Of a stretch of 64,000 bases of DNA, positions 4,646-63,765 are shown one piece after another (position 1 is the first letter of the stretch; each line of letters opens with the position of its first letter). Origin of the DNA: Haliotis asinina (taxonomy: Eukaryota; Mollusca; Gastropoda; Lepetellida; Haliotidae); the NCBI RefSeq assembly GCF_037392515.1, contig NC_090280.1, positions 17,424,001 to 17,488,000 of the forward strand. Reading direction: 5' to 3'. The notes beneath the pieces were generated by a model that was given only the letters and a program-made list of their open reading frames with translations, was not told the origin of the DNA and ran no database searches. The position numbers and the translations under genes are program-made.

Positions 4646-5134
4646 GGTATGGGAGTTGCGACCCCCTAACGGTACGACTGTACTTGAGTTACGACCCGTA
4701 ACGGTACGACTGTCGTAAGTCTCTGTTACGGCACTTGAGTTACGACCCCCTAACGGTACGACTGTCGTAAGTCTCTGTTACGGTACTTGAGTTACGACCC
4801 CCTAACGGTACGACTGTACTTGAGTTACGATCCCCTAACGGTACGACTGTTGTAAGTCTCTGTTACGGTACTTGAGTTACGACCCCCTAACGGTACGACT
4901 GTACTTGAGTTACGACCCCCGAACGGTACGACTGTTGTAAGTCTCTGTTACGGTACTTGAGTTACGACCCCCTAACGGTACGACTGTACTTGAGTTACGA
5001 CCCCCTAACGGTACGACTGTTGTAAGTCTCTGTTACGGTACTTGAGTTACGACGACTGACGGTACGACTGTTGTATGGATGCGTTACGGTATGGGAGTTA
5101 CGATCCCGCTAACGGTACGACTGACGTACCTCTA
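4646..5134 (+). repeat. Minisatellite of 33- and 52-bp units
   Basis: Alternating long and short units share gagttacgaccccctaacgg followed by tacgactg; the long unit adds tgtaagtctctgttacgg. There are about 11 units, with outer ones more diverged. Confidence 0.92.
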
Positions 5135-10740: not shown

Positions 10741-10798
10741 ATGGCGTCTTGGATATGTTTGAGTGTCTGCATAATCACAGCGTTCGTTTTGGAACCAG
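10741..10798 (+). CDS. Receptor exon 1: start codon and signal peptide
   Basis: The ATG lies in a good context (A at -3, G at +4). It starts 19 codons reading MASWICLSVCIITAFVLEP, a hydrophobic signal peptide. The exon ends in a consensus donor (CCAG then GTAAGT) after one base of the next codon. The first Ig exon begins with CC, giving GCC (Ala), so the phase matches exactly. The distance to exon 2 is large and other leader exons cannot be ruled out from sequence alone. The 5' UTR and transcription start are not identified. Confidence 0.72.
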
Positions 10799-13700
10799 GT
10801 AAGTCACCACCTGTCTTGCAGGAGCATTATACACCTGTAGTTGTATCGCAAATTGCGGACATTTTGAAATAGGTCGCTGACACTAGATACCAACGAGACG
10901 TTGGGTTTGAATACTGTGTCAAATGGCTTCGCGTTGTACACGGGATTATATACTTTTTGCGTTCATGAATAGCGCAACACTGTGACAGTTTGAAAGTTCC
11001 GTTAAAACGGTATTATGTGATGCTTATAGTATACTGACACAATAAATATAAGTAAATAATGTTTGTTGTAAGAGCGTTCAAATCTGACAACTTGTGACTT
11101 GCCGTCAAGTGAAATATGGTACAAGCTAGTCGTGTATTGTTCGTTATCGGGATACTTGTCATCCCCAAAGAGCATGGCAACATGTAATTTGTGCTGTTTC
11201 ATTTCTGAAACTGCAGACCCGTGAAGGTCCCAGGGTAGAATAGGCCTTCAGCAACCCATGCTTGCCATAAAAGGTGACTGTGCTTGTTGTAAGAGGTGAC
11301 TAACCGGATTGGGTGGTCAGGCTTTCTGACATGGTTGACACATCATCAGTTCTCAATTGCGCAGATCGATGCTCATGTTGTTGATCACTGGATTGTCTGG
11401 TCCACACTCGATTATTTACAGACCACTGCCATATAGCTGTAATATTGCTGAGTGCGGCGTAAAACTAAACTCACTCACTCACGCACTCACTCACTCACTC
11501 ACTCACTCACTCACTCACTCACTCACTCACTGAAACTGCAGAGTGTATCTGTGTATTAGCAACAAATTCGGGTCATTTTACGCTATCACTGGGGTTTTCC
11601 TTGTCCCACAAGCACATTTGCAACGCGGAACACAAGTAACAGTCCAAAGTTTACATTAGTTGAATTGTAGGTATTACATACTTAAAAACATTATTCATGA
11701 ATTCATGGACATGACAAAAGTGAGAGTAACGATTTCAATACTTCAACCGAAATTTGTAGTAGGGAATAGGTTTAATGAAGCAACATTTTGTTTGATAAAT
11801 TCATCAGGTTTCACTTTCAGGTATGGCAGTTATAGAAACTCCCCATAATAATACTCATATAATTGGTATCTGCTCAAATAAGGATTAACTTGAAATATTT
11901 CCCCTGTGTTGCTATCGGAAACAGTTGTATTGAGCCTCTGTTCCTTAATGTAACGACCATAAAATGTTTTGTCTTCTAGTGGGATTTGAACCACAGACTT
12001 GATCTGAGACCCAGTGACCAATGATGTCAGAAAGCTGAAAATTTGGGGGTCAAACAATGTACAACCAATAATTATTTTTTCAGGAATATACCTCAAGTGT
12101 CTGAATTCTAAAGAGTTATTGTGTGTAATTTCAAATCAGTTTGAAATCCAAAATCGTTTAAGTTACATTTATTACCTATAGCATTGAATTGTGTGGGTGC
12201 GTATCACGTGTCATTGCGAGCATTAGAGATTAAAATATATATATATATATCAGACAAGGCCAGACACTTTGGAGTACCCCATCAGCCTGCTTTGCCAAAC
12301 GCTACACTACCATCGCATGCATTTGATTAAAACTTCATCTAAACATAGTCATGGGTGACTAACCTATCCATCACCACTTATGACACCTACCAGTTCTTTA
12401 TTGTTATTTCTACAAGTCAATTGAAAGCTGATCATGCTGATTTTGACCCTTAACTAAACGGTCTTGGCAGAAATGGCAAGTAATAGCAAGGACAATAAGG
12501 CCGCATAATTGGGGGTCTGGTGAAAGCAAGTCTTCTCATTGGTCAATGCTTGGTATCATGCAGATGCAGATGTGTATCACACAACTCCTGAGAGAATGGT
12601 CATAGAGAGAGAGGGTCCCCTGCCTTGATATTGCTGGAATTTTGCTAAAGATGGCATAAAACTTAACCCACTCACTTTTGATTAACAACATAGGTATACT
12701 GCATTTGAATCATGGCATTGTTACGGTTAAAAATTGCTGTGACACAGGTGTAAGAAGTCCCCTCAGAACCAGCAAAATACAACACTGAGAAGTCTGACAT
12801 TTTCAAAACAAAACCAAGATACAAGAATTCACAAGAGAGGTTTCATTTACAATGCAAATGAGTCAAATTTACAGTAATGGGTCACAGTATAATGTCAACT
12901 CACCACACCCCCTGGAACCACTGTCCTGCAGAGTGCAGTGATGGGGTGACTGTCCGCTGGTATTTGCAGTGATCGCATGCTTGTTTTGGTGGCGAATGTA
13001 TGATTGGTGTTAACATCTAGTCACCATTTGTGAAACATGAAAGGTATGGTTTAAATATTAGCATTTCGCGAATGCACAGGATGTGGTGATTATAAATAGG
13101 AAGTTTCAAGTTGGTAGGTTAAACATGAGAGAAGCAATCGTCGATTATCGACAGAACATATCTTTTCACGTAGACAAATACTAAGTTTATTTCCTAATGG
13201 TTTGATTTTACAACATTTCAGTGAGCAGATATTGTTAATAATACACTTTTCACATATTTTTCTTTGCCCTATTGAATGCATAATATTCATTTGATCTATC
13301 TATATGGGATCGTGAAGTGATCACGGTCCAGTGACTGTACACTCATCTGTGCATGCTTGCAGTGATCATATTTTTGTCTTGCCATGATTGGTATCGTACA
13401 GTCTTTTCAAAGTAAAAATCAAACATGTGCATGGACCATGTAGAAGTGAAGATGACTGAAATATGTTGTTTGGATCTAAGCTTTATTGGCATAGAATCAG
13501 AAATTAAAGTCCCAGCTATTGTGTGAGAAAGGATTGAGACAGCACAGCACACGTTAATGAAAAAATAATGGCACAGCTCAAGTTAATGAAAAAATTACTC
13601 TCTCGGCACTTGTGCGCGTGCTTTACGAACACGTGGCTGTCCCTTTCTCTGCACTCCTCCCTCGTAACAAACAGTGAAATGTGTGAATATTTTAATATGA

Positions 13701-16700
13701 CAGATTGTTAAACAACAAAATCCTCAGAGTTGGTATGATGGTTTGATTATGATCAGCGTTTCACTGAGTATGCTATGTTTAACAGTTTCTGAATTAGATT
13801 GCAATTCATCGTCCTCTTTTGAGCCAAACGGACTATGGTCATTAATAAAGAGTCAAACGATGTATAGCCTAACACAAGCCTAGAAATGTTTATTAGAAAT
13901 GATAGAGTGTCATCATAATGTTTATCACACTTCACGCCTAGATGTCACTTTGTTATTGGCTGAGCGCGTAACATTTTCTATGTAACCTGCCGCTGGGAAT
14001 GCTGAAATCATTTGGAACTTTGTTGTAGTAATTCTTTTTCTCGTGTTACAATGAATCACGTACGATAAACTGAAATTACACATATTTTGCGAATGTAATG
14101 GAAGGGAGATAACGCTAAACTTGGCTTTCTTGGCATATTCTAGCTATGGCCACAAATAGTTTTGTACCCTTGCTCCGAACAATTCAAAATTGACATAGGG
14201 AACATAAACAAACATCGAGTGTACATCAACCCATGTTCGCCTCCTGACCAGTGAACAACTTGTATTGTGTGTATACTAAAAAGTGGCTGCATGGGTTTGT
14301 TAACCTGGGGAGGTGGAGAGGAGATACAATCAATGCCTTGTCTGTCTGTCCTCTGCCTTGGACATGCAAATTGAATCTGCTTTCATCTGTGAAGAGCGCA
14401 CAAGACCATTGGCCATGATGTCTACTCCATCTCAAACGCGCTTGCCTGTGACGTGGTGTTAGAGGTGGACGAAATGCAAGTCTCCTACAGCAGAGTCCAG
14501 TTGCCTTTAAACGTCGATGACTGGTGCTCCTGGATATCTTTACATTGTTAACATTGATGTGTTCTGTTGGAAGATCTGCTGGGTTAAGGAATCGGTGTCA
14601 TAACGCAGCGTTAGTCATTGGCCTATCTAAGACTGCTCACTAGTTTGAATTCGTGAAATCTCTGTCACAGTCTACCAACAGCACCCTGACTCGTGAAAAA
14701 GCAGATAGCAATCTACTGCTGAATTTGACCAGGCCTATGGTCTGACACTCCCACTCCCTGAACCATATTATTTTCCCTACATCCTAGCCTCCTGCAATGC
14801 TAAAGTCCTAAATGAAGCAAGGATTAGAATCCCTCGTCTCCCTGGGGCTCCTTTTTAATTTTTTGATATACGTTTGTTGGTTGCCATCAACATTTATAAT
14901 TATCTATTCAGAGACTAAGCATTAGTCTAGGTCTGACACCTTGCAGCAAGTATCAACAAGTGGTTTTCCATGTCAACATTTTGAATAAAATGTGTGCCAT
15001 TTGAAACAGAATGTCTTGGACACGTAGATTTGTCTACGTGAAAAGATATGTTCAGCTGATAATCGACAATTGGTTTCTTCATGTTTAACCTAGCAACTTG
15101 AAACTTTCTACTGCTAGAAACATATTAGATGATCCTGCGCACTAAACGCATTTGTGACAAGAGAGGCGGTACAACGAATTGGGCGAGTACACTTGGCTGC
15201 TACAGGTAGCTTGCCAATTATGCACATGCTATACATGCTAACCGTGACATGAAATCAACACCGCATAATCCTTCGAATGATAAGACCGCAATTTCAGGCA
15301 TAAGATACTGATATTCCATGCTAACCTCTAGTTACGACGAAGACAAATAGATGATTGGGGCATTGACAAGCATTTAGATAGTTTGTCAAAAAAAACCCCA
15401 GGAAAATGTCATTTGCTTCGTGAAATGGATCGGTGGTCGTAAACATATTTGTTCAGTGTATTGTGTTGATTCAATTCGTTGGGATTGTAGCTGTTCCCAA
15501 ATCGAGTGTGCTATAACAATTCATGCGTGAAACGCATAAGGAAAATGAACTTCTCGATATTTATCAGACAGCCTGTCTCCCTCTTGTTTCAAGTGGATCG
15601 TTCTGTGGGGCGTTCCCAAGTATGCAAATTGGGATCATTTGTCAAGTTGTGGATCATCTTATATGTGTTTACCAGTATATGTCACTATCACTATCAGAAT
15701 CTGCATCCGTGAAATGTTAATATTTAAACGTTTCTGTTCGCGTGTCGCAAATGGTGACTAGATTTTTAAGACCGATCTTACATTCGCCACCAAAACAAGC
15801 ACGTGAACACTGCAAATGCAGACGGACAGTCACCTGATCACTGCACCTCTGCTGGACAGTGGTTCCAGGGGGTGCACCAAAGTTTTGATATGAGAGTGAG
15901 AAACAGTTATGCAGAATGTAATACAGCAAGCGATCAGGCAGCGGTTATGAAGATCAAGCGTTGACGGAGATGCTGACAGATGTGTACTCCAGTAGTCAGT
16001 GTGTATTTCCGTGTCAACAACACGGCAACTAGCCTTTATATATATACATTCAGTCATTTCCTGAAAGTTCGAGCACATGCGACCATCGCCGCTAACGTGG
16101 CATACTCTAGAACAGTAGTAGTTTCGAGCTCACCTATTTTTTCAAAGGGAGGTAACTCTTAAGCACTTCCAGAAAGCCTGCTGCCATGATACGAATACTG
16201 CTGAACATTTATGATACGAAATGTTACCCATAATAATTAAAACAGTAAATGTTGTGACCTAGATAATAATTATTACTTAATTTATAATACAATTTACAGA
16301 AAAGACACTCTCATAACAGTATGTAGGTTAAAATTTTGCATGAATATTCTTCTTCGGTCCGTTTCATGCTACATAGACTGAACATAAACTAGGTTAATTC
16401 ACTGAGTTGTAATATTTTGGTTTTGCTATTAAGTTCTTATAATCTTGAAAGATATAATCTTATGTTAGTTATGTTAATCACACTGATAGTCAAAAATATT
16501 ATAAGAGATTATGTTGATTGTATGTAGTGTGTATGAATTATTAATATAGCATCAGTTATTCATCATTTCTATAAATGTGTATTGACTGGTTATATACATC
16601 CATTTATATGAATATAAGAGTATTGCTATATATTCTGGACAGAATAAGTTGGGGATAGTGGTATTTTCATGGTTGATATTTTATCAGTGTGTCAATGAAT

Positions 16701-19700
16701 GAATAGATGTTTACTCATAATTTCCAAATTTACATTATATGTATCCCTAACTATTTTTGTCCGGTATACTGTGACACCCATAACAGATCTAGTTTCACAT
16801 CACATATTCTAAGTGTGCATTGTCAGGTGCCCAGTTTCTGCTTATAACATGTATGGAGAGCTGACGATCACGGGTTGGACATATTATCCAAAAGATGTTA
16901 TATTTGTTGGTCCTTGTTTTGTTGTCGGCATTGAAGGGTAGAAGGAAGACTGGTTGCTTTGGTATCAGTATAATTATGAAAATGTGCCAGAGTGCGGTAT
17001 TCATGCTTAACTGCGGTATGGCATCACAGTGAGCTAGTGCTGTTAAACCAGGTTAAGTCTGAAGTAGTCCAAGTAGTCACACATACACACACATGTATGT
17101 CATCATACAGGGTTCCAGATAATTTTTCAATATAAGAATTATGTATGCCTTATTTTTTCAATATAAGAGTACTGGGAAAAGTTAGAACACTGAATGGAAT
17201 TTGATGGCGTGTAATTAATCATGTGTTTCGTTTCATATATGCACCACAGTATTGTGTAAACAGGTCAATAAACAATAAAGCAATACTTTTTTGGATAAAT
17301 ACATCCGTAAATGATTCTAAGACCGTACACCATTGTTGTGGTGCGAATCTGCTACTTTCTGATTTTTTTCCCACGGAGTCTTGCATATTTTGTATCCATA
17401 AGACACTGATACGGCCCTTATCTGGAGCCCTGATCATATGAGCAAAGTATATTTTCAAGAATGGCATTAAACCCCATTTCCCCACACTTAGAAAATGTTT
17501 AAGGCTGCGAATTATGCAAAGACAGAAACATTTTTTCGTTTTTCACTGAACTTGCAGTGTGGTTATATGCTGGTGGGAGAGAGTGCTTGAAGATTCAGGA
17601 TAATGTTTATGTTCTTGGATGTTGCAGGCATTAATGATCATGGATTCCCTCCAAATCCTGAACATAAACACCTGCACAGCTTTCCTTTTACATAAACAGT
17701 CCAGAAAATTTGAAACTGTCTGACTAGCCATATTTTCAAGGGCAACTAATTCGCGATTCATTGAGTTTGAGTGAAGTGAAATATTGCCAAAAACAGTGAA
17801 AAAACAAGGGTGCTGACACACCAGCACCATGTTTGATTCAAACACCCAAACACAACTGTCTAGAACAAGTGGAAGACAGATTTCCCATGCAGCTTGTGTC
17901 AACTCAGGGCACACACAGTCGTGAATTGGTTCCGAAGGGCTTGGAGCACTTTGTATCAACCATCTGCCGTAGATGTTCTCGTGGATCTTCCAGAGCAAGG
18001 TCTGGCCTGGAACCTGTCCCTAAGTCTGTGAATGACAGAAGTAGACACCTAAGACAGCAAGCAACACATCTTAAGGATTCACCATCCTGCAACCCTGCAA
18101 TGGCGTTGCTTCTGTCACAGGTGCTTTACGATGCGCTGTAACATGATGAAGAAGTTGTGAGGCTTCAGTACTGTCTGTAGCTTCTTCTAAAGGGAATGTT
18201 GCCATAGATATGAATACAACCAAGACAGTGAATACAATGAGACTTTCCTCATAGTCACTTTCCTCATTGTCAATTGTTGACATGCAAAATATTATAGACT
18301 TAGTCTTACTCTTAGTTTTTGTTTCAGGGATTGTGTGATGGCAGAAAATCATTTTACAAGTACTACAAGCTCTAACCTGAAACAGTGTTTGGATAGCAAA
18401 AACTTGTGATGTTGCTGGAATAGTGCTAATAGTGACATACAGCCATACTCACTGATTTTAATAGTGTCCTTGTTAATTTAAATAGGTTGTAGAAATGATT
18501 AGTGAAAGGCCATTACATTACCCTGTAGATTATTAAGTTCTGTCTTTCTATTTCAGCCACAGAGGCCAGACTGACCACATCACCAACACAAATAACAATC
18601 GGTGGCAGCAACCCAACATCTCAGTTAACTGTAAGGTGCATGCCAGATGCACCTGGGATAACACAAGTGTTTAACATGGAGATTGGCAAGAAATCATCTA
18701 CTGGCTCTAATCAGCCTATGATCCGAATAACGAACACTGATTCGTCAGTACAGGTAGTGGACACAAGTCTACAACAGCGATTGACACCCTCAGGTTCTAT
18801 TAGTGGATCAACTAGCAATATACAATTCATCTTGACAGATCTGAGATGTGCTGATGCTGCTTCGACATATTACTGCATAACGTTTTACTTGGCTGGGTCA
18901 TCGGGAACTGATGAAACAGTTGCCAACATCACTGCTAGAAGTAAGAGAAGAATTATTGGCTTGAATACAAATTTGTAACAAAGATTTGACTGAAATTTGG
19001 ACCACACTTTTGTTCCTCAGAACCTGACTTTCCCATTTCTGTTGTTTCTGGTCACAGCTATGGTCCATGGTTGCCATTTTTACATTTTGAAGGGCATTAT
19101 TGACTACACGAAAATGTCCATATGTATAAAAGGCCAATAAATGTATCAGTGGTCTGACTCAGAGGTTGTATGTTGATTCACATAAGGTGCAGTGGGGAAG
19201 CCTAGTGATTAAGGTGTCTGCAGGTCATGATGAACACCTGGGTTTTATTCCCCAGGTTGGGACAATGTGTGAGGTCCATTTCTGGTGTCCCCTGCCATGA
19301 TATTGCTGGAATATTGCTGAAAGCGGCGTAAAACCATACTCACTTGTATCACTGAAAGGTTAAATGTGTCACACTCACAGCATTTATTTGACAGACTATT
19401 TTTTACAAACAGTTTTGACTGAAGTGGCATTGTAGCTGGAATATTACAGTCCCAAAGGAGAAACAAATCATTCCTCATTTTTAATTGATCTCTGTTCATT
19501 TCTGTCGCACAGCCTACCCAGAGCAGATAGCGATCTTCCCAAGTCCTGATAGGGTCCAGTATGACGATGGTCAGCCCGTCTCATTCAGATGTACAGGCAG
19601 GATTGGGAATCAGTTTGATGAGAACAACCTTCAGAACCTGTGGACATGGGAGTGGCGATCTATAGACAACGAGTTCAGTTCCTGGACACGGTACCCCAAC

Positions 19701-22700
19701 GAACAAAACATCACCTACGACCTGCCTACGCCATCAACAGAATGTCAGTATACAGGGGCGTCAACGCTGGTGCACACAGTCTCAAATCTGGACAATGGAA
19801 GACAGTTCAGGTGTTCTGTCGTCAATTCGGACTACAGCGCAAACAAGACAGTATATGTTGTTGGTAAGATGTGTCAAAACATTTCATGCTTTGTCTATTA
19901 GACCTGTGAACGTCCAGGTTCGTATTGGTCAGCATGTTCAGCTAACTATGCCTGTCGTAAGAGGCGACCAGCATGATCAGGTGGTCAGGCTCACTGATTT
20001 GATTGACAATTAATAGATTGATGTTCATAATGTCAGTCACTGGATTCTCTGATCCAGACTCCATTGTTAAAAGAACATCATCATATATTGCTTAGAGCCA
20101 TGGTAAACAACAGACCACCCAACTTTATCTACTGGCTTTGCATTTTTGTTTCATGATGAATTGTTTTCAGAGGAGAGGGTGGTAGAATTATCTGTGGCTT
20201 GTTGCTTATACAATGATGGCAAGTTGTATCAAGGGCTAGGAGATATTGGTAGTTGATATCATGCCTCATTTCAGTTTTAATTACATGTTTATAAACACTA
20301 TGGAACTAACAGATGCCATTATTGTATTTGTTTTAATAAAATCATTTTCCTTAAAAATATCCGATGTCTGAAGGGGTGTTGGGGCAACCTAGTGTTTAAT
20401 GCATTAGTGCGTCACGCTGAAGACCTGGTTCTATTCTCCACATGGTACAATGTATGAAGCCCATTTCTGGTGTCCCCTCCATGATATTGGAATATTGCTA
20501 AATCATTGTAAAACCTTACTCACTCAGAAGAAAAAATCATATTCCAAGTAACTTTTTAGGATTATAAAAGTGGTTTAACACTGGTTGTGAAGAATTCATT
20601 TGTGTGTACAGTAATCCTTAACTTTTGCATAAACTTTCGTCAAAGTAACTTGTATGAATAGACATGTGAGAACCCATTCATTATTCATTTTCAGAATCCT
20701 TTAGCTCGTTTCAGAATGTCAGTGTCTTATTGTTTATTTATGTTTTCATGTACCATTGTTCATGTCCTGTGCTGTGATGTTGCTGGATTATTGCTGAAGT
20801 GTAAAACTCACTCACTGCCCTGATTGTGAACAGGTTGATAATGCCATTTAGATGAGAGAGGAATACAGCTTTATTCAAAGTTTGCAGTGATGTCGAAAAT
20901 GCATCATGTTGACAGCTCATACGGTGTAAGGATAACTGTCTGTCTCAAATCCTTCGAAAAACACAACCAACTGTTTTTTACTCTTTTAATGAAAATAATG
21001 ACATCATTGTCGTCACACACATCAGCATTGACCTCAGAGTCTTAGTGAGTTCATCCTACTAGATTATTACTATTGATAATTGTTTTTAATCCTTCTTTTC
21101 GATCGATTTGTTATTATGAAGAAGTGAACACTGACATAAAACTCTGTGGTGTATTGAATTAACTGGAAGAAGGTGGTATTGAAGAACTTGAATTTCTGTC
21201 AGATTTCACAGAAAAGACTACAGTCATCCTCGATATCTCCAGGGTGTACGTTCCGATAAGTCTACACTATACACTGGATGCATCCACGACTCAAGTCAAT
21301 AAAGTTATTACCTCCCTTTGCTGGCTCTGCATTCTCATAGTAGTCAATCTTAGCCAAGCTACCATTATAGCCGAGGTTGCCAGTGTCTACAAACATAGCG
21401 GTCACTGCAGCGAACTTTTGTTTGCAATGCAACTCAGATTTTGGGAAAGTTATACAGACAAACTGATAGGTCCGAAACTTATATTAAATATGTGCATGAA
21501 CTCCTATGTCTTTCAGAGAACCTATGCATGATTTGTGTTGCCAAGTTTAATTGATTAGATAATTTAAAAAGTGAAAATGAGCAGTGACTGGTTGGCTCAA
21601 CTTCCCAGGATAGACACCTGACTGGATAAAAGGCCTGCCAAGGGAGGTAACAAGATTATCAGGCCGAGCTGTAAATGCATCCATTGGTATACTGAAGACT
21701 TACCGGAATGTATACCCTGGATATATTTAGGATGAAGTGAGTTAGGCTTTGCATTTCCATGTCATATATGGTTAGAACCTGTGTGAGTGTACCATTTGAC
21801 AGTTCAGTAAGTGTTGCACGTTCACCTGTCTTTGACACCAATAACTGGGTCGATCTCTATATCATGGTGCATTCAGTTTCCATTACTTGTGAGATGGTGA
21901 TTGTATCACCTTCAGTTTTGTTAACTATTTGTGACAGTGTAATGTCATCTATAGTATTATCCCACCCCTAACTAGATGGCAGCAGTCTCAGACGGAATGA
22001 TTTTGAAACTAAATACCCCTCACAGATTTTGAAATTAGAATGCAGAATGTGGGGATAGTACAAATTAGTTCCTCCATCCTGTCACTCAAGCTTTTTCCAA
22101 ATACACCTGGTTGTTGTAGATTCATCAATGAATTGTTTGAGTAGCCCACAGCACTTCATAATGTCACCAATCAACAGAGACCATCCCATAGTGTATTTGG
22201 ACCAAGCTGTTGTATTAGAATGAAATTACTTCTACTTACTCTCCTGGAAATAATTTCCAAGGGAATTATTATCTTTGGTAATTATTTCCACCAGAAGTTT
22301 TGTCCTGGGATATTTCCGTTCAGCAGTTTCTCGAGTATCAACATGTAGGGTTGTCACAGTACATAAGTTTCACGAATCATGTTACCCATGTCATGATTCG
22401 ATATGTATCACAATACTTACTTTTGCAACACTATTGCGTAAATTTAGTTACATTTGAACATTAGTATTTCATATTTTTTAAGTGTCCATGAAAAGATTAA
22501 CATTTTTTGCACTTAGAGATTAAAGGTTCTAATTTCCCATCATTGTGCTTGGAAAAGAATCATTTATAACTTACATAATATCCAAAAAAAAATGATACAG
22601 TTGCAAAATGTAAATGAAGCATAAATATTTTTATGCCAGTACTTTCAAAACTAAATGTTGATGCAGTTTTGAATCTGTCAATAATTGTGTCATGTTAGGA

Positions 22701-25700
22701 AAAGTATCACTATGTCATGGCATCCCTATGTATGTAAATTTTATTTTCCTTATGAAAATGTATCGTAAATCGTCAAAGCTAATTTTAACTCTATAAACAA
22801 TAATTATGGTGACGTATTTACAACCATGTTCTTATATTTCCAGGCCAAGGAGGTCCAGTTACTGGTACCACACAACCAACTACAAGTGGTGAGTTTTGTG
22901 TTTAAATGTCAGTATACATACAGTGAATGAAGTTTCAAACAAAGAATGGACAGATGAAGATGTCATCATAGAACTGGAATATTCCTGAGTGCAGCATGAA
23001 ACAAGCAGGAAAGTGAACAAACTTGTAACTTAGTTTTTGCTAAATATATTTTCTCATGTAGTCGCACAGGATGGGACCAGGGTCTATGTACTCTTAGCGG
23101 GCAGTAGGTTGGACAAGTGGTTTTAGAGTCTGCTCATTACATTGAAGGTCTGCATCTATTCCCCTCATGTACAATGGATACCCAGTGTCCCCTGCCATGA
23201 TATAAGCGGCTTAAAAGTGTGCTCAGTATACACAGTTATGGTGATGTTATATTTGCTGTATATATCATTTGGATGAACGTGGGCCCCCTTGTTTCAGATG
23301 CCGGAGTGGATGGTGGCATGATCGCTGGTATTGTGATAGCTATCCTGGTTGTCATCGTCGTTGTCATTGTTGTCATCGTCGTCCTGCGCAGGAGGAAAAA
23401 TGGTGGCGAACACTGTGAGTATACCATCAGGTCATAGGTACAGCATGTGAAGCCCTTTTCTGGTGTCCCTGGCAGTCATATTGCTAGAATCACACTAAAC
23501 TCAATCACTGTGATCTATAAATGTGGCTGCTTTATTTTATATGTAAATATTTTTGTAAATGAAAATGAATTGTGCAGCATTTCTTAAAACTTACTCCTTT
23601 TACCCTAAATATCGGTTGCCTATAATATTTGTGTAATTTCCATATTCAGATGAAACAAAGGAAGAAGATGGGCCAGGGTAAGTGTGCATGCTGTTTTTTT
23701 AGATGAAATGAACAGGAAAATGTACCTAGGTTATAACATTTGTGAGGGAAGGACGCCATGGAGAAATGGCTGTTCTCTATTTTCAGATATTAATGTTCAA
23801 AATCTAACCATCATTTACTGACTGTTTTATTCTGGAGTGTAAATATATATTACTTAAAATCAGCTCAGTGGAGGGTGAGCAAAAATGACCAATAAACCAA
23901 AAGCAGATGTCAATTGTAATATGGTAGACTGAGATCTCGGCAACCCCCCAAACCCCTTCATTATTAGTCAAGAGTCTTGGTGGACAATTCATACTGATCA
24001 TTGATCATGAGGATGATATGATAAGTTTTCTGTGTCAAAGTTATTCATAATATTTTTTGGTTGACAGTGTCTTTTTCAAGATTTTCAAGATTTTTTAGAT
24101 TTTTGTGTGTGTGTTTTCAGTAATTTACATCGTCAGTCGAATCAACGTATGTTAAGTGAGACAAAGTATCAATTCATCAACTATGTTGATGCTGATTTGC
24201 AAAGTTCTTTGAGCATGTATCCTTGCATTAAAATATCGCTTTAGACCATCCCTGGATATTTCGCGCTTTGATCACGCTATATTCTTTTCATTTCGCCTTG
24301 CTGCTTCTCTCCCTTCACGAGGCACTGGAGAAGTCAGTCTAATGGTTGAAGTGGCCGCTCATGAGCCTAAAGACCTGGGTTCAGTTCCCCACATTGGTGT
24401 AATGTGTGAGACCATTTTTGGTGTCTTCAAATTGCTGGAATATTGCAAAAAAAGGCATAAAACCATACTCACTTATTTACTTTCTCTCACTTTTCACAAG
24501 AAAGCAGATTGCAGATAGACATTAAACGATTTATATTTTTCAAGTCATTGCTCATGCTGTCAGTCACTGGATTCCATTGTAAAGGTCAAATTAAGTACAA
24601 ATCATGAAGCATGGTAAATATCATGGAAACATTTGCTGTTTTGGCTTCATTTTGACATGGTACTATGATGTGTAGTCAGGCAGCACCCAAAAGGCTACGT
24701 TAGTCCGTCCTAATGTCAGACACAGGTGAATTTTGTGGAGGATGGGGTAAAAAAAAAATCTAGTCTGTCCTCACGTCAGGTCAGTTTTAGCAAACCAATG
24801 ACATATATAATGATTATAACCTTTTTGAATATTACCAAGGGATACTAGAACAATCAAACAGATAAAATTATTGCAAACGAATTTGATGAGATATGTTTAT
24901 TTTAAGAACAGAGTTCTCTCCCTTAGCTTCTGGAGCTTATTAAGGAAGTGCATGATGGACCGCTTGTCACAGAATCAACGAATAGGAAAATGTGTATCTA
25001 GTTTCCCGCCAAATTTCAAACCAAAATGGCACGACCCTCATCAGTCAGTCTGCTGCTTTGACCAGTTTTAAGTTTTGAAATTTGGTTTTATTTATATTTG
25101 GAGGACAGGCTAGATTTTGCAGGACTTTTAAATAATTTGACCAACCAGTTGTGTGGAGAGACTAGATTATCTACATCTTTCCTACACTGCAAAGTTCTGT
25201 CTGAAATTACAGAAAGATTTACAAAAATACACTCAGTGATTCGTTAAGGGGATTGGCCTTGTAGATCAGATCCCCTCTGTAACCATGGTAGCAGGGATTA
25301 TTATAAGATTGTGAATCTAGATTGAAATAGGCAGGGATTTACAGGAAGCAAATTCCTGCATCCCATATGCAGAATTAATGGTATGAGTCTCAGGGATCCT
25401 TAAATACAGGACCCAAGGTAAATGCCTGAATAGGTATTGAGGAACCTGTGCAGTCTAAGTAAACAGTGTCAATATTATTCGTTAGACTACTATGCTGAGT
25501 CTACAAACTCTAGTGGAAGGGTGTAACAGGTAACTTTTGAGAGAGACCTGTTAGAACACAGTGTACCAAATCAAGTTGACACTCGCACATACCCTTTGCA
25601 CTTTTACCTTGAAAAAGTTTCTACCCAACTCGTTCTGAATGCTATTTTTTATATGATCACTTCCGGGTGATGCACATGGATCACGCCAGAACAGTGAGTA

Positions 25701-28700
25701 AACAGTCCCTGTAAATAGCGTTTTGACAATATTCAATGATGTCAGCTTGCAGAAATATTAGCTGATAGTAACCATGTCAACAGAAACCCCAAAGTGTATA
25801 CACTGCAGGTCAAATATCTGTTTTATGTGGATTTTTGTTTGTTGAGAGATCAGTGTCAGTGACCTGGGAATTTTGTCCTACCGAACCTGTAACAGTAGCT
25901 GTTGTGTGATTGGTTCAACCCATTTGGCCATCACGCATTTCATAGGTCACCCAAAGGTTGCCTGACGGAACGTTCTACTAGGGTTGGGTTTGTTAGACTC
26001 AGTGTAAGGAATAACACAGAGACTAAGTTTACTGTGACTGGGAATCTGTGCTGCTAGGTTGATCAGGGTGCCATGGTACAAACACCTTCAGTGCAACAAC
26101 TATAGTAAGCGTATGTTAAGGAGTGGGAGACACGATCACCTTAAGGTTGCAGTTGGCATAAGTTTGCTTAAAGGAATGGAACTCTCGATTATCTCAGCTT
26201 TAATACTGGTGCAGTCTGTATGAATAACTTAGATCATTGCGTTATGAATATACACTGTAGAAAGATTTGGTAATGTATTCATACACTATAGAGAAATTAA
26301 TGCGGTATTAATGCTGACTTTCTACTTGCTTCTTCACTCCTGAAATAATTGAGTGCATGCTTGCTAACTGACTAATCCTTGTGTGCAATAAGATGGTCTG
26401 TGTTGAATTGCTCAGTGAATACTTGTCATGGTACATAGTAGTGCCATGCTGACAGCATTTAACACATTTTATCAACACATCAAAAATATCGAAACCCCAC
26501 AGCATACTGACACCTATATTTTGTCAACAGTATTGAAACCACATTTATTTTATGGCATCTTTAATATATGAACAACATTGAAATCACACATCAATCTTAC
26601 ACACATGTTCAATGCAATTATCAGTTTGATAGATTTGACACGTGAGTTTATGCTGCTGTATTTATGTTCAGTATTTTGGTATGCAGACAGATTGGTCTCT
26701 GTCCCATGAAACTATTGTTGAAGTACGTGAATATATTTAGCATTTTCTCTTTCACAGTGAAAGGCCGGAAATGACTCCTAATGTAGTGTACAGTACACCA
26801 GCCAGCAACGACCCACGGGTAAGTACCTTTAAGAACGTAATTATAAATGTACTATATAAGAACATTCTAGGGTGTAATGTTGTTTTTCATACAATGTCCA
26901 ACTTTGAGATATCAATGTTGAGATATCAAAGAAACCCCACAGAATTAGAATTATAAACTATTTTTCTCTATTTTATTGGAAACAATTCTCGTACACGTGC
27001 ATCATCAACGGGACCATATCATCAAGTTGTCAAAGAGCAAATTAACGATGTTTTGGGGAGATAATTAATCAAAGTTAATAAGCAGAAGAATACAATCAAC
27101 AACAGTACCCGTAAAAGTTGTCAAATGAACATTAGAACTTACTACGTCCATCTTTTTTGCGCGATTGTGTGCCGTACTTCAAGTGACATCTCGGCTTTCT
27201 TCGCCTCGAACTTGATGCTCGGACACAATGTTTAGTGATAAAAAATGTGCATAAAGCATTTTTGTCAAAGGTCATAACCTGGCACAGTACATGCACTAAA
27301 CTCTGTAATGTATGTATAGGTGGTGGTATGTTGTCGATCACGTTCAGAGTAGCATGATTTTACTCATAACTTTCATCTGAATCTAAGTTTACAAAGGATA
27401 TTATCCATTGCTGTTATCTGATTGGCTGCCATAGGTCATATGTTTGATTTTGACCATTCACGATCCTTATAGCAGACTGTGGCAAATAAGCGTCATTAGA
27501 AACTAGTTTTTATCCAAAGAGATTGCTTCTTACAAATCGAAAAATACTCTTGACAAGGTTGATGTTCAGAGCTTTCGAACGATACCCGCCATCAAATGAA
27601 TCGCTGCCTCGCATGTTATTTGTACGGAATTTCGAAAACCGGGGTGAATTTGCCCTAGTTGTATCCCCGTTACCAAGCGGAAAGCCATTGATATTGTGGA
27701 AAAGATGATCATAGATATTAATTGAGAAATCTATAGTAATAATTTTCCGATTACTTGAAAATGAAAATATAAAAAGGTGAAGGGAAACTTAATGGTATCG
27801 CATCGTGGCTCTCAGGTCGGGGATATAATGACATGTTACAAATGAATGCCCCTGCTCCAATAATCACTCACTTCTTGAAAGTGCTTGTGCAAACAACAAA
27901 ACAATTGCAATCGGGCCTCCTATTGCTTGCGTGGCATCTACAAAACAATAGGAAGCAATCACCGTTTGTGAAGTGACAGGAAACAGCAGATCCGATTGGC
28001 ACGTCAAATGGCGACCGGACAGGATTATAACTTTTTAAAAATTGATATTGTGTGTAAATAGCTAGGTATAGAACTTAATAATGTCTAAGGGCAAAATAAT
28101 TTGAAATAATGAAAACTGTACACTTCGATTTGTACTTTATTGAGCATGTATAACTAAGTGTCTGTAATTGTCGTAAACTTCCTAGCAGGTGTACCGCTAA
28201 CCTGTAAGATTGTCCTCACATGGCACTGACAACCAGAAAAATACTTGCGTGAAATTGTGCCTTGTAGATAAGCTGACCCCCTTCTACTGACAACATTCTT
28301 TGGTCCTCAAAATTCGGCTTTAACACAGTAATATACGTTATTCCATCCTTGCCTGCTAGCCTATCACAAATGCATAGATTCTTTCCTCCTAAAGTATGAT
28401 ATATATGAATGAATGGGCCACTTAAAAACAGCATAATATTTAAAGTAAATTGTCAATTCTGATTCAGGAAACATATGGGATTTTTTGTATCACTGTATAT
28501 TTTTAGACCTTTCCTTAATGGTTCTGTTTGCTTACCATGACATTCAAGACTTACAGGTCAATACAGGTCTAATGACCTAAAGGTCATGGTTACAGCAGCC
28601 TGAAGGTGATGGCCTTTGTGATAGTGACAAATGTCATGATGACCTATATTTCGTTAACAAAGGTCATGTCAGATTGACATATTCCTGGACACAGGTAACA

Positions 28701-28994
28701 GGTGGCAGAATTCATTGTCATTTTCGCTCTTACCTTCTGAACTTTACCTCTGAAGAACTGAGTCAAAACTTTCGAATAAGCCCTCATTAACATGGCATGG
28801 AAATTATGACAATCTTTTAAATTCTGCCACCTTACCTTGTCTTGCAGGAAGACGATGACAAAAAAGATCGAAATGCTAACGCAGAAGGCCTACATTATGC
28901 CGACCTTGACCTTGCTAGACTACCTGAGAAAGGAGAACCACGTGCCAGGCAAAAAGATGCTCCAACCGAATATGCATCCATTCGACTGTTTTGA
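10741..28994 (+). CDS. Two-Ig-domain type I receptor with ITIM and ITSM-like tail, 8 exons
   Basis: Spliced gene; exons 10741-10798, 18557-18940, 19513-19863, 22844-22888, 23298-23414, 23650-23677, 26758-26818 and 28848-28994. All junctions are GT-AG and the phases (1,1,1,1,1,2,0) join into one 1191-nt frame, 396 residues plus TGA. Layout: signal peptide 1-19, V-type Ig 20-147, second Ig 148-264, Thr-rich stalk 265-286, helix about 287-309, basic stop-transfer RRRK, tail to 396. The tail has LHYADL (Tyr365, canonical ITIM) and TEYASI (Tyr390, ITSM consensus TxYxxV/I). In animals such paired motifs recruit tandem-SH2 phosphatases (SHP-1/SHP-2, corkscrew), so an inhibitory receptor at the plasma membrane is the natural reading; the ligand is unknown. 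Phase-1 borders around each Ig exon are typical of the Ig superfamily. The least certain link is exon 1 to exon 2, across 7.8 kb. I do not recognise a specific ortholog. Confidence 0.85.
11218..11533 (+). mobile_element. Second-family SINE-like repeat, fullest copy
   Basis: Runs from agcaacccatgcttgccata through aggtgactaaccggattggg, gatcactggattgtctggtc and ctgtaatattgctgagtgcg to gcgtaaaactaaactcac and an (ACTC)n tail. It shares the 3' tail with the tRNA-derived SINE but has a different body. Confidence 0.85.
11472..11533 (+). repeat. (ACTC)n simple repeat at a SINE 3' end
   Basis: Tetranucleotide tail following the gcggcgtaaaactaaactc end of the element at 11218; probably the SINE's own tail. 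Confidence 0.9.
12615..12672 (+). mobile_element. SINE 3' fragment
   Basis: gtcccctgccttgatattgc ... gcataaaacttaacccac, the tail half only. Confidence 0.6.
12905..15878. repeat. Long imperfect inverted duplication flanking a Tc1 relic
   Basis: Segment 12905-13066 is the reverse complement of about 15719-15878 (shared block cttgttttggtggcgaatgt). Segment 13097-13177 is the reverse complement of about 15027-15112 (shared catatcttttcacgtagac). The two blocks are 30 bp apart on the left but about 600 bp apart on the right, so the right arm has an insertion. It could be the long terminal inverted repeats of a DNA transposon or a local inverted duplication. Confidence 0.75.
14226..14560 (-). pseudogene. 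Tc1/mariner transposase fragment
   Basis: The - strand reads PPLTPRHRQARLRWSRHHGQ then WSCALFTDESRFNLHVQGRG, the classic Tc1 transposase core around the second catalytic Asp (FTDESRF). Upstream, SRSTSHRRLKATGL-like sequence matches the end of the DNA-binding part. The flanks are frameshifted and neither terminus of the gene is intact, so it is a dead relic. Confidence 0.8.
16631..16769. mobile_element. TA-type MITE (family with copy at 50715)
   Basis: The left end tatattctggac ... gttggggat is complementary to the right end atccctaactatttttgtcc. The interior (gatattttatcagtgtgtcaatgaat) is shared with the copy at 50715-50846. The terminal TA suggests a Tc1/mariner-mobilised element. Confidence 0.7.
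18557..18940 (+). CDS. Receptor exon 2: V-type Ig domain
   Basis: Residues 20-147. The exon follows a pyrimidine-rich acceptor (tttctatttcag) and ends at AGAA before GTAAGAG. The B-strand cysteine is in LTVRC and the F-strand signature is DAASTYYC, the D-x-A-x-Y-x-C pattern of V-set domains. An extra cysteine sits in LRC shortly before it. One N-glycosylation sequon (NIT) lies near the end. The C-strand tryptophan usual in V-sets is not obvious. A 1-1 phase module encodes the whole domain, as in many Ig superfamily genes. Confidence 0.88.
19187..19346 (+). mobile_element. tRNA-derived SINE in receptor intron 2
   Basis: ggggaagcctagtgattaag, ggttttattccccaggttgg, ctgccatgatattgctggaa, aagcggcgtaaaacc. 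Confidence 0.85.
19513..19863 (+). CDS. Receptor exon 3: second Ig-like domain
   Basis: Residues 148-264. The acceptor is tctgtcgcacag and the donor is GTAAGATG. The domain has a B-strand VSFRC, a tryptophan-rich C strand (LWTWEW) and an F-strand RQFRCSVVN, so it is a C2/I-like Ig fold; a third cysteine is in STEC. Sequons are NIT and NKT. The 351-nt exon is a 1-1 phase module. Codon use and GC content are clearly above the surrounding AT-rich intron. Confidence 0.88.
19901..20095 (+). mobile_element. Second-family SINE-like repeat
   Basis: cctgtcgtaagaggcgacca, gtggtcaggctcactgattt, cagtcactggattctctgat. Confidence 0.7.
20374..20527 (+). mobile_element. tRNA-derived SINE in receptor intron 3
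   Basis: ggggcaacctagtgtttaat, gaagacctggttctattctc, gtgtcccctccatgatattg. Confidence 0.8.
21224..21735. mobile_element. 512-bp element with about 90-bp terminal inverted repeats
   Basis: The left end tcatcctcgatatctccagg ... ttacctccc is the reverse complement of the right end gggaggtaac ... ccctggatatatttaggatga, with scattered substitutions. The interior has no transposase signature, so it is probably non-autonomous. It lies in intron 3 of the receptor. Confidence 0.75.
22844..22888 (+). CDS. Receptor exon 4: extracellular stalk
   Basis: A 45-nt exon between acceptor atatttccag and donor GTGAGT, residues 265-279. It encodes a Gly/Pro/Thr-rich linker (about GQGGPVTGTTQPTTS) that could be O-glycosylated. 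It is too short to stand as an ORF; support comes from its perfect phase 1-1 fit between the second Ig exon and the membrane exon. Confidence 0.8.
23150..23215 (+). mobile_element. SINE fragment
   Basis: ctgcatctattcccctcatg and cccctgccatgatataagcg, shortened body. Confidence 0.5.
23298..23414 (+). CDS. Receptor exon 5: transmembrane helix and stop-transfer
   Basis: Residues 280-318, after acceptor cttgtttcag and before donor GTGAGT. A short DAGVDGG lead is followed by about 23 residues of almost pure Ile/Val/Leu/Ala (residues 287-309), then RRRKNGGEH. No charged residue lies inside the helix, so pairing with an ITAM adaptor through a membrane charge is not suggested. The low-complexity I/V run comes from repeats of gtcatcgtc-like codons. 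Confidence 0.88.
23432..23512 (+). mobile_element. SINE body fragment beside receptor exon 5
   Basis: catgtgaagcccttttctgg, gcagtcatattgctagaatc, starting 18 bp after the exon 5 donor. Confidence 0.5.
23650..23677 (+). CDS. Receptor exon 6: juxtamembrane tail, 28 nt
   Basis: A micro-exon between acceptor catattcag and donor GTAAGTG. It completes Tyr319 and encodes an acidic juxtamembrane stretch (YETKEEDGP). Phase runs from 1 to 2. It is supported only by its splice sites and by the need for a phase-correct link between exons 5 and 7, which it provides without a stop. Confidence 0.75.
24318..24476 (+). mobile_element. tRNA-derived SINE in receptor intron 6
   Basis: taatggttgaagtggccgct, gggttcagttccccacattg, tgctggaatattgc, ggcataaaaccatactcac. 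Confidence 0.8.
26758..26818 (+). CDS. Receptor exon 7: membrane-proximal tail
   Basis: Acceptor ctctttcacag and donor GTAAGTAC. It encodes ERPEMTPNVVYSTPASNDPR, residues 329-348, after the split Gly codon. The tyrosine in VVYSTP is not a canonical ITIM, having Pro at +3, but could be phosphorylated. The exon ends in phase 0. This matters because the ITIM exon and both downstream alternative-exon candidates can also be read from phase 0. Confidence 0.8.
26819..28847 (+). other. Receptor intron 7, free of recognised repeats
   Basis: No SINE or MITE seen. It contains a cluster of AGGTCA/TGACCT hexamers at 28555-28666, shortly before the ITIM exon acceptor. Confidence 0.4.
28848..28994 (+). CDS. 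Receptor exon 8: ITIM/ITSM terminal exon
   Basis: Starts after acceptor tgtcttgcag and runs 49 codons to TGA. It opens with an acidic/basic patch (EDDDKKDR), then LHYADL (ITIM, Tyr365) and, 25 residues later, TEYASI (Tyr390) only six residues before the C-terminus. The family knowledge used is the ITIM consensus [SIVL]xYxx[IVL] and the ITSM consensus TxYxx[VI]. Both tyrosines are in one exon, so alternative last-exon choice would gain or lose both together. Confidence 0.85.
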   Translation, partial: EDDDKKDRNANAEGLHYADLDLARLPEKGEPRARQKDAPTEYASIRLF

Positions 28995-44385: not shown

Positions 44386-45969
44386 AAACCAAATGTCTCC
44401 AAGGCAGATGAAGATCCTAGATTCCAAATTCACATGACAATAATGATAACAGCAGAAATGATCATTTCCTTCAACATTTCCATACCAACTAAATCTCCTG
44501 GGACTGACCACCTTGCCCCAAGTCAACTACACACACGACAAAAGCTTGGTACATCGAGGGCTGGAATGTTGGAATGAATCAAAGGCCATAGTGAGCACAA
44601 AAACACAACTGAGCAAAACACAAAAATTAAAACACTTCTCAAAAACTATGGATATAGATGACACTATCATATTATTGCCTGTACAGAAGATTCTTTAGTC
44701 AACTAAATAAACCCATGGTCAATGTCTCTTGGGTATATATAACTATTAGAGCTTTGCATCACTGTTGGCTCAGCCACAGCCTTTCCCATTTCATCTTGAA
44801 CTTAGGGACATGGCATTAACACAGGCTGTAAACATTAGTAGCTGTCAAGGTTACCTAATGATAAGTTTCTGAAGTCATGATATGGTCCCCACATATAAAA
44901 TGAACACCTGCTAATCAGAACAACAAAGTAAAAACTCATTTTCTATTTTTTTATAATACATTTTTTTTTTCAGAGAAGTGACAAGTAGTAATTGCCCTGA
45001 ATGACAGGTTTTCAGATTATCAAAGTCCTGATTAAGTAAGTCCAGTTTAACAAGGTTTCACTTCAGTAGTTGGAAGAGGAGTTATCTACACCACATAAAG
45101 CAAATGACGATTCATATCCAATTAAAAAATAAGCACAAAAATAATAAATGAATTATTTCAAACTTTAAGAATGAATAACCAAATTGCAACTTTCTCATAA
45201 GCAAAACAAATTAATATTTTTTGGAATTAAGAAAATAACACTAATTTACTAAACAGCACATGTATCTACTACGACACTTCAGTGAAAACTATTGCAGGCA
45301 AAAACATCCAACAAGCTCAAAACTACCAGTTCTCTGCACAAAGTCGGAATTCTTCTCCAAGATATCATAAAAATACAAAGCAAATTAATATTTCTATAAT
45401 TGTGTCTTTTAACGTCAGATGCAAACAAACTAACAAAGTCTGTCAAGAAAATCTCATTACAATATTTGTCATCCAATACCACATATACATATATTATCGT
45501 GATACTCCCAGAAGTAATTGGTTACAACAATATCTACAAAACAGACAGGAAGTTCTCCAATGTCTTGTTCACTGATTTGATCAAAATGAAACTTTCAAAC
45601 TTGTTACATCTTCAAATATTTTTGTCAAATTATTCCCTCACAGACACAAAACATGACCGTGTACTGAGCGACTGCAGATGAAATCTGTACATCTGTTTTT
45701 AATCCCTTCTGATTGTCTTCAAGTTCTGTTGGTCCCCTAGACTTGCAGACCTCAGATCTATGGTATAAGGCAAATCTGTGACACGCTTGTAATTAGAGGC
45801 AGGAAAGTACAATCCCTTTGTCATGACAAAATATTTTTTGCTAAAATGGAGTTGAAAAGGAACTCCATCAATCAGTTGCTTTCCCTTCTGCGTCTTGGTT
45901 CCTGTTTCTCCTTGTTTTCAGTGATTCAACCATATGATTTCACTACACATTCTTTACATTTCACCCTTA

Positions 45970-46300
45970 TCCTTTACAGCTCACCCTTTACATGTCTCAC
46001 CATTCCACTTCTCCACAACTCACCCTTTACATATCACTGCTGCCACTTCATCCTTTACAGCTCACCCTTTACATGTCTCACCATTCCACTTCTCCACAAC
46101 TCACCCTTTACATATCACTGCTGCCACTTCATCCTTTACAGCTCACCCTTTACATGTCTCACCATTCAACTTCTCCATGACTCACCCTAAGCATATCACT
46201 GCTGCCCTTTCATCGTTTACAGCTCACCCTTTACGTCTCACCAGTTGACTTCTCCATAACTCACCCCATAACATGTTACTTCTTTATCTTTTACAGCTCA
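45970..46300 (+). repeat. 81-bp tandem repeat, about 4 copies
   Basis: Unit begins cctttacagctcaccc and recurs at 45971, 46052 and 46133, with a diverged fourth copy near 46212. The period of 81 keeps frames open and creates the apparent 114-residue ORF. Confidence 0.9.
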
Positions 46301-62940: not shown

Positions 62941-63009
62941 CTGTAGGAAAAGGAAGAATTCTTACATTATGGAAAACAATGACATTTGGATGAAGTGTCA
63001 AGAGATTGG

Positions 63010-63765
63010 ATAAAATATTGAGGGGTTGGGCGAAGTGTACAGAGGTTGGACAAAGTGTTGAGGGGCTGGACAAAGGGTCAAGAGGTCATACAAGGTGTGT
63101 CAAGGGTTTGGACAAAGAGTCAGAGGTCATACAAGGTGTGTCAAGGGTTTGGACAAAGTGTCGAGGGGCTGGACAAAGTGTCAAGAGGTCATAAAAGGTG
63201 TGTCAAGGGTTTGGACAAAGTGTCAAGAGGTCATACAAGGTGTGTCGAGGGGCTGGACAAAGAGTCAGAGGTCATACAAGGTGTGTCAAGGGTTTGGACA
63301 AAGTGTCGAGGGGCTGGACAAAGTGTCAAGAGGTCATACAAGGTGTGTCCAGGGACTGGACAAAGTGTCAAGAGGTCATACAAGGTGTGTCAAGGGTTTG
63401 GACAAAGTGTCAAGAGGTCATACAAGGTGTGTCAAGGGGCTGGACAAAGTGTCAAGAGGTCATACAAGGTGTGTCAAGGGTTTGGACAAAGTGTCGAGGG
63501 GCTGGACAAAGTGTCAAGAGGTCATACAAGGTGTGACAAGGGTTTGGACAAAGTGTCAAGAGGTCATACAAGGTGTGTCAAGGGTTTGGACAAAGTGTCA
63601 AGAGGTCATACAAGGTGTGTCAAAGGTTTGGACAAAGTGTCAAGGGGTTGGGCAAAGTGTAGAGAGGTTGGAGCAAGTGTCAAGCGACTGGACGCTGTGT
63701 TCAGGACTTGGATGTAGTGTCAAGGGTTTGGTCGATGTATCAAGGAGTTGGATGAGTAAGTGAGA
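63010..63765 (+). repeat. 21/42-bp minisatellite in SORL1 intron
   Basis: Built on a 21-bp motif of the ggacaaagtgtcaagaggt type, arranged in 42-bp and 63-bp composites. The period is a multiple of three, so long open frames run through it; they have no coding value. Confidence 0.9.

Follow-up and report, generated by a model that had tools for sequence, protein, structure and literature searches.

The immunoglobulin (Ig) receptor IgIT of oysters reportedly bears an immunoreceptor tyrosine-based inhibitory motif (ITIM). In review passages and reference titles, IgIT, CgIgIT2, and CgSiglec-1 are presented as inhibitory Ig receptors of the oyster (PMC11999971, PMC5877582). The text of one of these reviews assigns CgIgIT2 an immunoreceptor tyrosine-based activation motif (ITAM) and an activating function, while a title cited there names it an inhibitory receptor (PMC11999971); the title was followed here. 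An oyster 'BCR-like' signalling receptor is also in print, as judged by its title (PMC11999971), and snail siglec homologs were proposed in snail-schistosome compatibility (PMC6084811). Outside the molluscs, passages of a further review report that the Botryllus fester co-receptors (FcoR) bear an ITIM or a hemITAM/ITAM, with some alleles and splice forms exchanging one for the other, and that allorecognition candidates of Hydractinia carry ITAM and ITIM (PMC12065747). In vertebrates, the activating KIR and FcR are described in a source passage as associating with DAP12 or FcRgamma (PMC2413239), and the Ig domains of the gastropod VIgL and FREP are described in another as poorly detected by automated software (PMC9334734). 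The present analysis concerns a predicted Ig receptor gene in a 64,000-nucleotide stretch of the Haliotis asinina genome (the window; positions 17,424,001 to 17,488,000 of contig NC_090280.1, hereafter C1). A homologous ectodomain was found on the same contig in genes with ITAM tails, and we interpret the window gene, with moderate confidence and from sequence comparisons, as the inhibitory partner within a family of paired Ig receptors.

The window gene comprises eight exons between positions 10741 and 28994 on the plus strand, which splice in phase into a protein of 396 amino acids. All exon borders are AG/GT, the entry and exit phases (0/1, 1/1, 1/1, 1/1, 1/1, 1/2, 2/0, and 0/stop) are compatible at all seven junctions, and the eight exons are free of stops and frameshifts. 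The chain is hence confirmed at the level of genomic sequence, as the initial annotation had claimed in joining eight exons in exact phase. The predicted protein contains, in order, a signal peptide, a V-like domain, a second Ig-like domain (Ig2), a stalk, and a single helix, and its tail bears an ITIM and an immunoreceptor tyrosine-based switch motif (ITSM).

Exon 1 (10741..10798) encodes the signal peptide MASWICLSVCIITAFVLEP and was the sole candidate in 15.5 kb of upstream sequence under the thresholds set, with a donor score of 9 of 9. Exon 2 (18557..18940, 384 nt) encodes the V-like domain, exon 3 (19513..19863, 351 nt) encodes Ig2, and exon 4 (22844..22888) encodes the stalk GQGGPVTGTTQPTTS, all three of phase 1-1. 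The transmembrane helix and its basic stop-transfer sequence are in exon 5 (23298..23414), whose clear match in the genome was itself only; no charged residue is found inside the helix, and a crude scan of the plus strand of the window returned one hydrophobic-plus-basic stretch of this type. When the stretch from the helix to exon 7 was scanned with the thresholds chosen, the cytoplasmic exon 6 (23650..23677, 28 nt, phase 1 to 2) was the single phase-compatible candidate. Exon 7 (26758..26818), identified by its splice borders and phase, is also cytoplasmic and contains NVVYSTP, a further tail tyrosine that is not an ITIM. Exon 8 (28848..28994), identified in the same way, encodes the tail with both motifs and the stop, and it matched only itself in the genome. 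The signal, helix, and cytoplasmic exons are supported by their splice signals and phase, and the V and Ig2 exons are additionally backed by homologs under purifying selection. Introns of the gene reach 7.8 kb.

The two tail motifs named in the initial annotation, LHYADL (28890..28907, Y365) and the ITSM-like TEYASI (28965..28982, Y390), were both located in exon 8 on the plus strand, and we take them to fit the ITIM and ITSM consensus. They are spaced by 25 residues, with the tyrosines numbered by count. The tail fits the pattern [ILVS]xYxx[LVI] plus a second motif, and its cytoplasmic side is indicated by the helix and the basic flank. A chance test was made on 2509 terminal-exon-like frames from both strands of the window and of 200 kb of a cluster of paralogs near 31 Mb. 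Two or more [ILVST]xYxx[ILV] motifs were held by 37 of these frames, and an ITIM followed by an ITSM by four, window exon 8 among them. A DNA pattern for HYADLDL had one match in the genome, which was window exon 8. Neither a protein search, where one candidate passed the first look, nor the DNA pattern turned up this ITIM tail anywhere else in the genome, and no homologs of the window signal, helix, and tail exons were found in it. An inhibitory-type receptor is the best reading of these motifs and is partly supported, with recruitment of an SHP-type phosphatase predicted.

A search of the genome with the window gene gave 38 matches at E <= 0.01 (63 candidates, with the window's own exons included). 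Ten close paralog loci were found, all on C1, at 18.77, 18.93, and 18.95 Mb and, for the seven labeled A, B, C, D, E, G, and H, at 31.06-31.28 Mb. Distant relatives were found at C1 59.28, C16 25.08, and C10 44.29 Mb, and a weak one at C1 16.90 Mb. Over the aligned part, amino acid identity to the window gene was 60-79% for seven V exons and 77-87% for six Ig2 exons. The ratio of nonsynonymous to synonymous substitution rates (dN/dS) between the window exon and the others was 0.25-0.53 in five V pairs, where one 18.77-Mb exon of different length was excluded, and 0.09-0.26 in six Ig2 pairs. Siblings A, B, D, and E each have, 3' of Ig2, an exon similar to the window's stalk exon. The signal exons of A, B, C, and E are alike among themselves and unlike that of the window.

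When the window gene region was compared with 200 kb of the cluster, 32 DNA matches were obtained, of which ten were V and Ig2 exons with 74-87% identity, extending only a few bases past the exon borders. The remaining 22 were short, located elsewhere, and probably repeats. Hence, the introns of the window gene and the cluster no longer align, which indicates that their split was not recent, while the introns of the siblings align with one another in several pairs. An Ig2 tree was built from 11 rows, and those from the 31-Mb cluster (seven rows, six loci) formed a clade with a support of 96/97, and the window copy was placed outside this clade on a zero-length branch; four of the eight inner branches were open. 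Of the remaining relatives, the 18.93-Mb copy has a frameshift in Ig2, and neither a helix nor a tail could be recognized with conviction in the 10 kb read at the 59.28-Mb relative. The region C1:18.7727-18.7746 Mb contains a tandem array of three V exons and a fourth, degenerate one, spaced by about 155 bases. The 7.4 kb read beyond this array held no Ig2 exon, and the V exons might be alternatively spliced.

In the genes at 31.05-31.28 Mb, the Ig exons are followed by a helix exon and a last exon that both differ from those of the window gene. The last exon is an ITAM exon of the form YxxL-x10-YxxI, as in sibling E (DEYEVPDDRNDYDALQSDVADVPDTYEKIRTYQNV). A search with this tail exon gave 12 matches, seven of which are open tails of the cluster (A, B, C, C', E, G, and H), and the strict pattern is present in six of these seven. 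Across the open tails, 20 of 35 positions are invariant, including the two tyrosines of the ITAM, its first leucine, and YQNV, and dN/dS was 0.17-0.60 over 21 pairs. An Asp is found within the helix in nine of the 11 copies read (12 were found, the twelfth at 31.47 Mb), with B and the copy at 42.13 Mb lacking it. Sibling C is complete in our model, with eight exons and 390 amino acids on the minus strand (C1:31107898-31103131), where one small exon was picked to suit the phase; its Ig exons are 384 and 351 nt long, as in the window gene. Siblings E and A look intact where read, with one small exon of each unlocated.

Diverged copies of the helix and tail module were also observed. Three at 31.45-31.47 Mb end the motif with Met and fit the ITAM pattern if Met is allowed, though not its strict form, and one at 42.13 Mb fits the strict pattern with a spacing of x8. 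The genome search listed no ectodomain match to the window gene at either place, and no match of the helix and ITAM module was listed at 17-19 Mb. Of the ITIM-like matches listed inside the cluster, the two read in context sit between stops with no visible exon borders.

The identity of the ectodomain was examined with Pfam models and PDB sequences. No Ig family was among the 20 Pfam rows listed for the whole protein, up to E 10. The best score for any window exon was that of Ig_2 on the Ig2 exon (E 0.0074, below the cut-off); among the family members, Ig_2 matched two of seven Ig2 exons, and V-set matched one of eight V exons at E 0.1. A genome-wide V-set search gave 22 matches, with 150 of 348 candidates scored, and the window exon and the 31-Mb cluster were absent from them. 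Against PDB sequences, the whole protein weakly matched antibody light chains (best E 4.9e-6) and a profile of eight V exons weakly matched antibody V domains (best E 5.4e-5), while the Ig2 profile had no match below E 0.11. The V-like reading, which draws on the region of the second cysteine and on these low scores, is accordingly a weak one.

No match to vertebrate checkpoint receptors (PD-1, SIRP, and BTLA) or Siglecs was present in the Pfam listings or in the PDB sequences listed (60 of 88 and 60 of 113 matches, and 20 for Ig2). With respect to the Siglec V-set, the comparison of sequences gave only the weak V-like match to antibody V domains. The initial annotation had named paired inhibitory motifs as a defining feature of these vertebrate receptors; kinship with them was not apparent among the matches listed.

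Homologous ectodomains were found in these sequences on both signal types, with an ITIM tail on one and an ITAM tail on the other. One ectodomain cassette of V-like, Ig2, and stalk exons of phase 1-1 precedes an ITIM/ITSM tail in the window and a different helix with an ITAM tail in the cluster. We propose that both kinds of receptors are carried by the same or related cells, most likely haemocytes, and that their ligands are identical or related. Once the window receptor is engaged, a Src-type kinase would phosphorylate Y365 and Y390, which would then dock the tandem SH2 domains of an SHP-type phosphatase. This phosphatase may in turn dephosphorylate the signals begun by the ITAM siblings, in a form of cross-inhibition. 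The sibling YxxL-x10-YxxI would recruit a tandem-SH2 kinase, and the intramembrane Asp would hold a partner chain bearing a basic residue. In this model, the inhibitory gene would fix the threshold of a growing group of activating genes.

Among the best candidates scored or listed in searches for SH2 and protein tyrosine phosphatase (PTP) domains, three SH2 matches on C16 (47015735, 47016037, and 47016966) and a PTP match (47022581) lie on the plus strand. The SH2-SH2-PTP order within 7 kb fits an SHP-type phosphatase gene. These searches and those for kinase domains revealed further concentrations of signalling exons: very many tyrosine phosphatase exon matches on contig C7 (about 0.9-60 Mb); about six SH2 exons interspersed with tyrosine kinase exons at C7:54.50-54.61 Mb, which suggest an expanded cytoplasmic kinase family; and seven tandem kinase frames at C5:13.4069-13.4238 Mb, intronless, open, spaced by 2.5-3 kb, and with two distinct scores.

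The initial annotation had left the origin of the receptor as either ancient or convergent. Since the paralogs keep the ectodomain while carrying ITAM tails, convergence through a shuffling of exon cassettes within the lineage would be favored over descent of a vertebrate-type receptor. A broader and more tentative proposal, to which we give somewhat less than an even chance, is that of a complete protostome paired-receptor system built independently of that of vertebrates. In this scenario, exon shuffling brought one Ig cassette both to an ITIM/ITSM host gene and to a CD3/CD79-like module of an acidic helix plus ITAM, which later expanded into a cluster, and the diverged copies at 31.45-31.47 and 42.13 Mb may act with different ectodomains. 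A mollusc genome in which one ITIM/ITSM member and several ITAM members share an ectodomain would offer a concrete and testable protostome case, where the tyrosines and the helix Asp are defined and an SHP-type partner gene is available.

Several observations weigh against the paired-receptor reading. About 13.6 Mb separates the inhibitory gene from the activating ones, and the stretches read at the 18.77, 18.93, and 18.95 Mb copies revealed no tail. No relative of the inhibitory tail was detected in the genome, and the assignment of the Ig domains is weak, with no Pfam Ig model reaching the cut-off. Within the cluster, Ig2 is interrupted by a stop in B, whereas D has a shortened Ig2 and a helix with no tail found, so that both look broken; C' has a helix and tail with no Ig exons found ahead of them; and an eighth tail at 31056020 is broken by stops and has lost the second tyrosine. 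The second ITAM isoleucine is replaced by T in tail G, and the exon of sibling C at the place of the stalk, which is alike in length and phase, shows no detectable similarity to it. The Ig exons of G and H are tied to their tails by position only, being in order on one strand with the intervening ground partly read. A Syk-type kinase gene was not distinguishable from the Src and Abl types in the SH2 and kinase searches. Lastly, the case was built from the DNA sequence of one genome.

Among the alternatives, the best surviving, although unlikely, is that the window gene encodes a receptor for adhesion and that the tyrosines in its tail are used for conventional SH2 docking or, as YxxI/L sorting signals, for endocytosis, without any part in immune inhibition. 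Motifs of the YxxL/I kind are frequent and also direct protein sorting, and 37 of the 2509 frames in the chance test held two or more such motifs. However, an ITIM and ITSM at a spacing of 25 residues fit the binding of tandem SH2 domains, and the conserved ITAM tails on siblings with homologous ectodomains are unexplained by sorting alone. A less probable alternative is that the Ig exons and the downstream helix and tail exons belong to different genes, and that the chain is a chance series of splice-compatible exons. While this would agree with searches that gave no homologs of the signal, helix, and tail exons and with introns of up to 7.8 kb, all seven junctions are in phase, the signal and small exons each had a single candidate, the stalk exon, which has homologs, sits between Ig2 and the helix, and the intact ITAM sibling C shows the same order of parts. 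It is highly improbable that the window copy represents a non-functional chimera, either in decay or very young, as its eight exons contain no stop or frameshift, its dN/dS against the paralogs is low, and its introns are too diverged from those of the cluster for a recent split, even though such a tail was found once genome-wide and the broken B and D indicate birth and death in the cluster. The inhibitory member of a paired family thus remains our preferred reading.

Other features of the window were also recorded. On the minus strand, the segments 53530-53910 and 61397-61783 perhaps belong to a neighboring gene on the opposite strand; they comprise a helix-plus-tail stretch reminiscent of the tail of SorLA (SORL1), which Pfam and PDB did not name, and an fn3-like stretch that scored below the cut-off (Pfam fn3, E 0.0018). 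A fragment of a Tc3-type transposase (Pfam HTH_Tnp_Tc3_2, E 2.8e-10) is located at 14226-14597 on the minus strand. Tandem arrays were found at 59013-61434, 62985-63731, 4653-5123, and 45969-46266, and they include a 68 bp x 35.7 array and one of about 42/104 bp with two open frames. Scans of the window for tRNA genes and Rfam families gave no matches.

Comparison with the systems outlined at the beginning places the window gene among the mollusc Ig receptors of inhibitory type as these are described in the oyster review passages. Because oyster receptors of this type are already in print, it is not the first such receptor in a mollusc. The oyster proteins differ in their Ig composition, with five Ig domains in CgIgIT2 and two I-set domains in CgSiglec-1, and the passages of these reviews describe no ITAM sibling that shares the ectodomain (PMC11999971, PMC5877582). 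What may be new is the pairing of ITIM and ITAM on a shared ectodomain in a mollusc, as no paper on such a pair was found in the literature listings, where subscription papers were thinly covered. The FcoR and the Hydractinia candidates are likewise invertebrate receptors with ITIM or hemITAM/ITAM, while, according to the review passages, they belong to a chordate and a cnidarian and act in allorecognition, and the FcoR combine Ig domains of the V and C2 types with sushi domains and have a partner gene next to their own (PMC12065747). With the VIgL and FREP of gastropods, as described in PMC9334734, the window gene shares Ig domains that are hard to detect. The VIgL are set apart by their description, which pairs Ig with a lectin domain, whereas the window protein ends in a helix and tail and had no lectin family among its 20 Pfam rows up to E 10.

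The siblings alone, and not the window gene, resemble the CD79 and CD3 chains, which have an Ig ectodomain, an acidic helix residue, and a single tail ITAM. This likeness is one of features, and the siblings differ in being clustered and in having two Ig-like domains each. The closest parallel in layout is with the paired receptors of vertebrates (KIR, FcR, FcR-like, and Xenopus XFL), where similar ectodomains are likewise combined with inhibitory ITIM tails or activating forms. In contrast to KIR and FcR, the activating siblings described here carry their own ITAM in addition to the acidic helix residue, and the resemblance described is one of arrangement.

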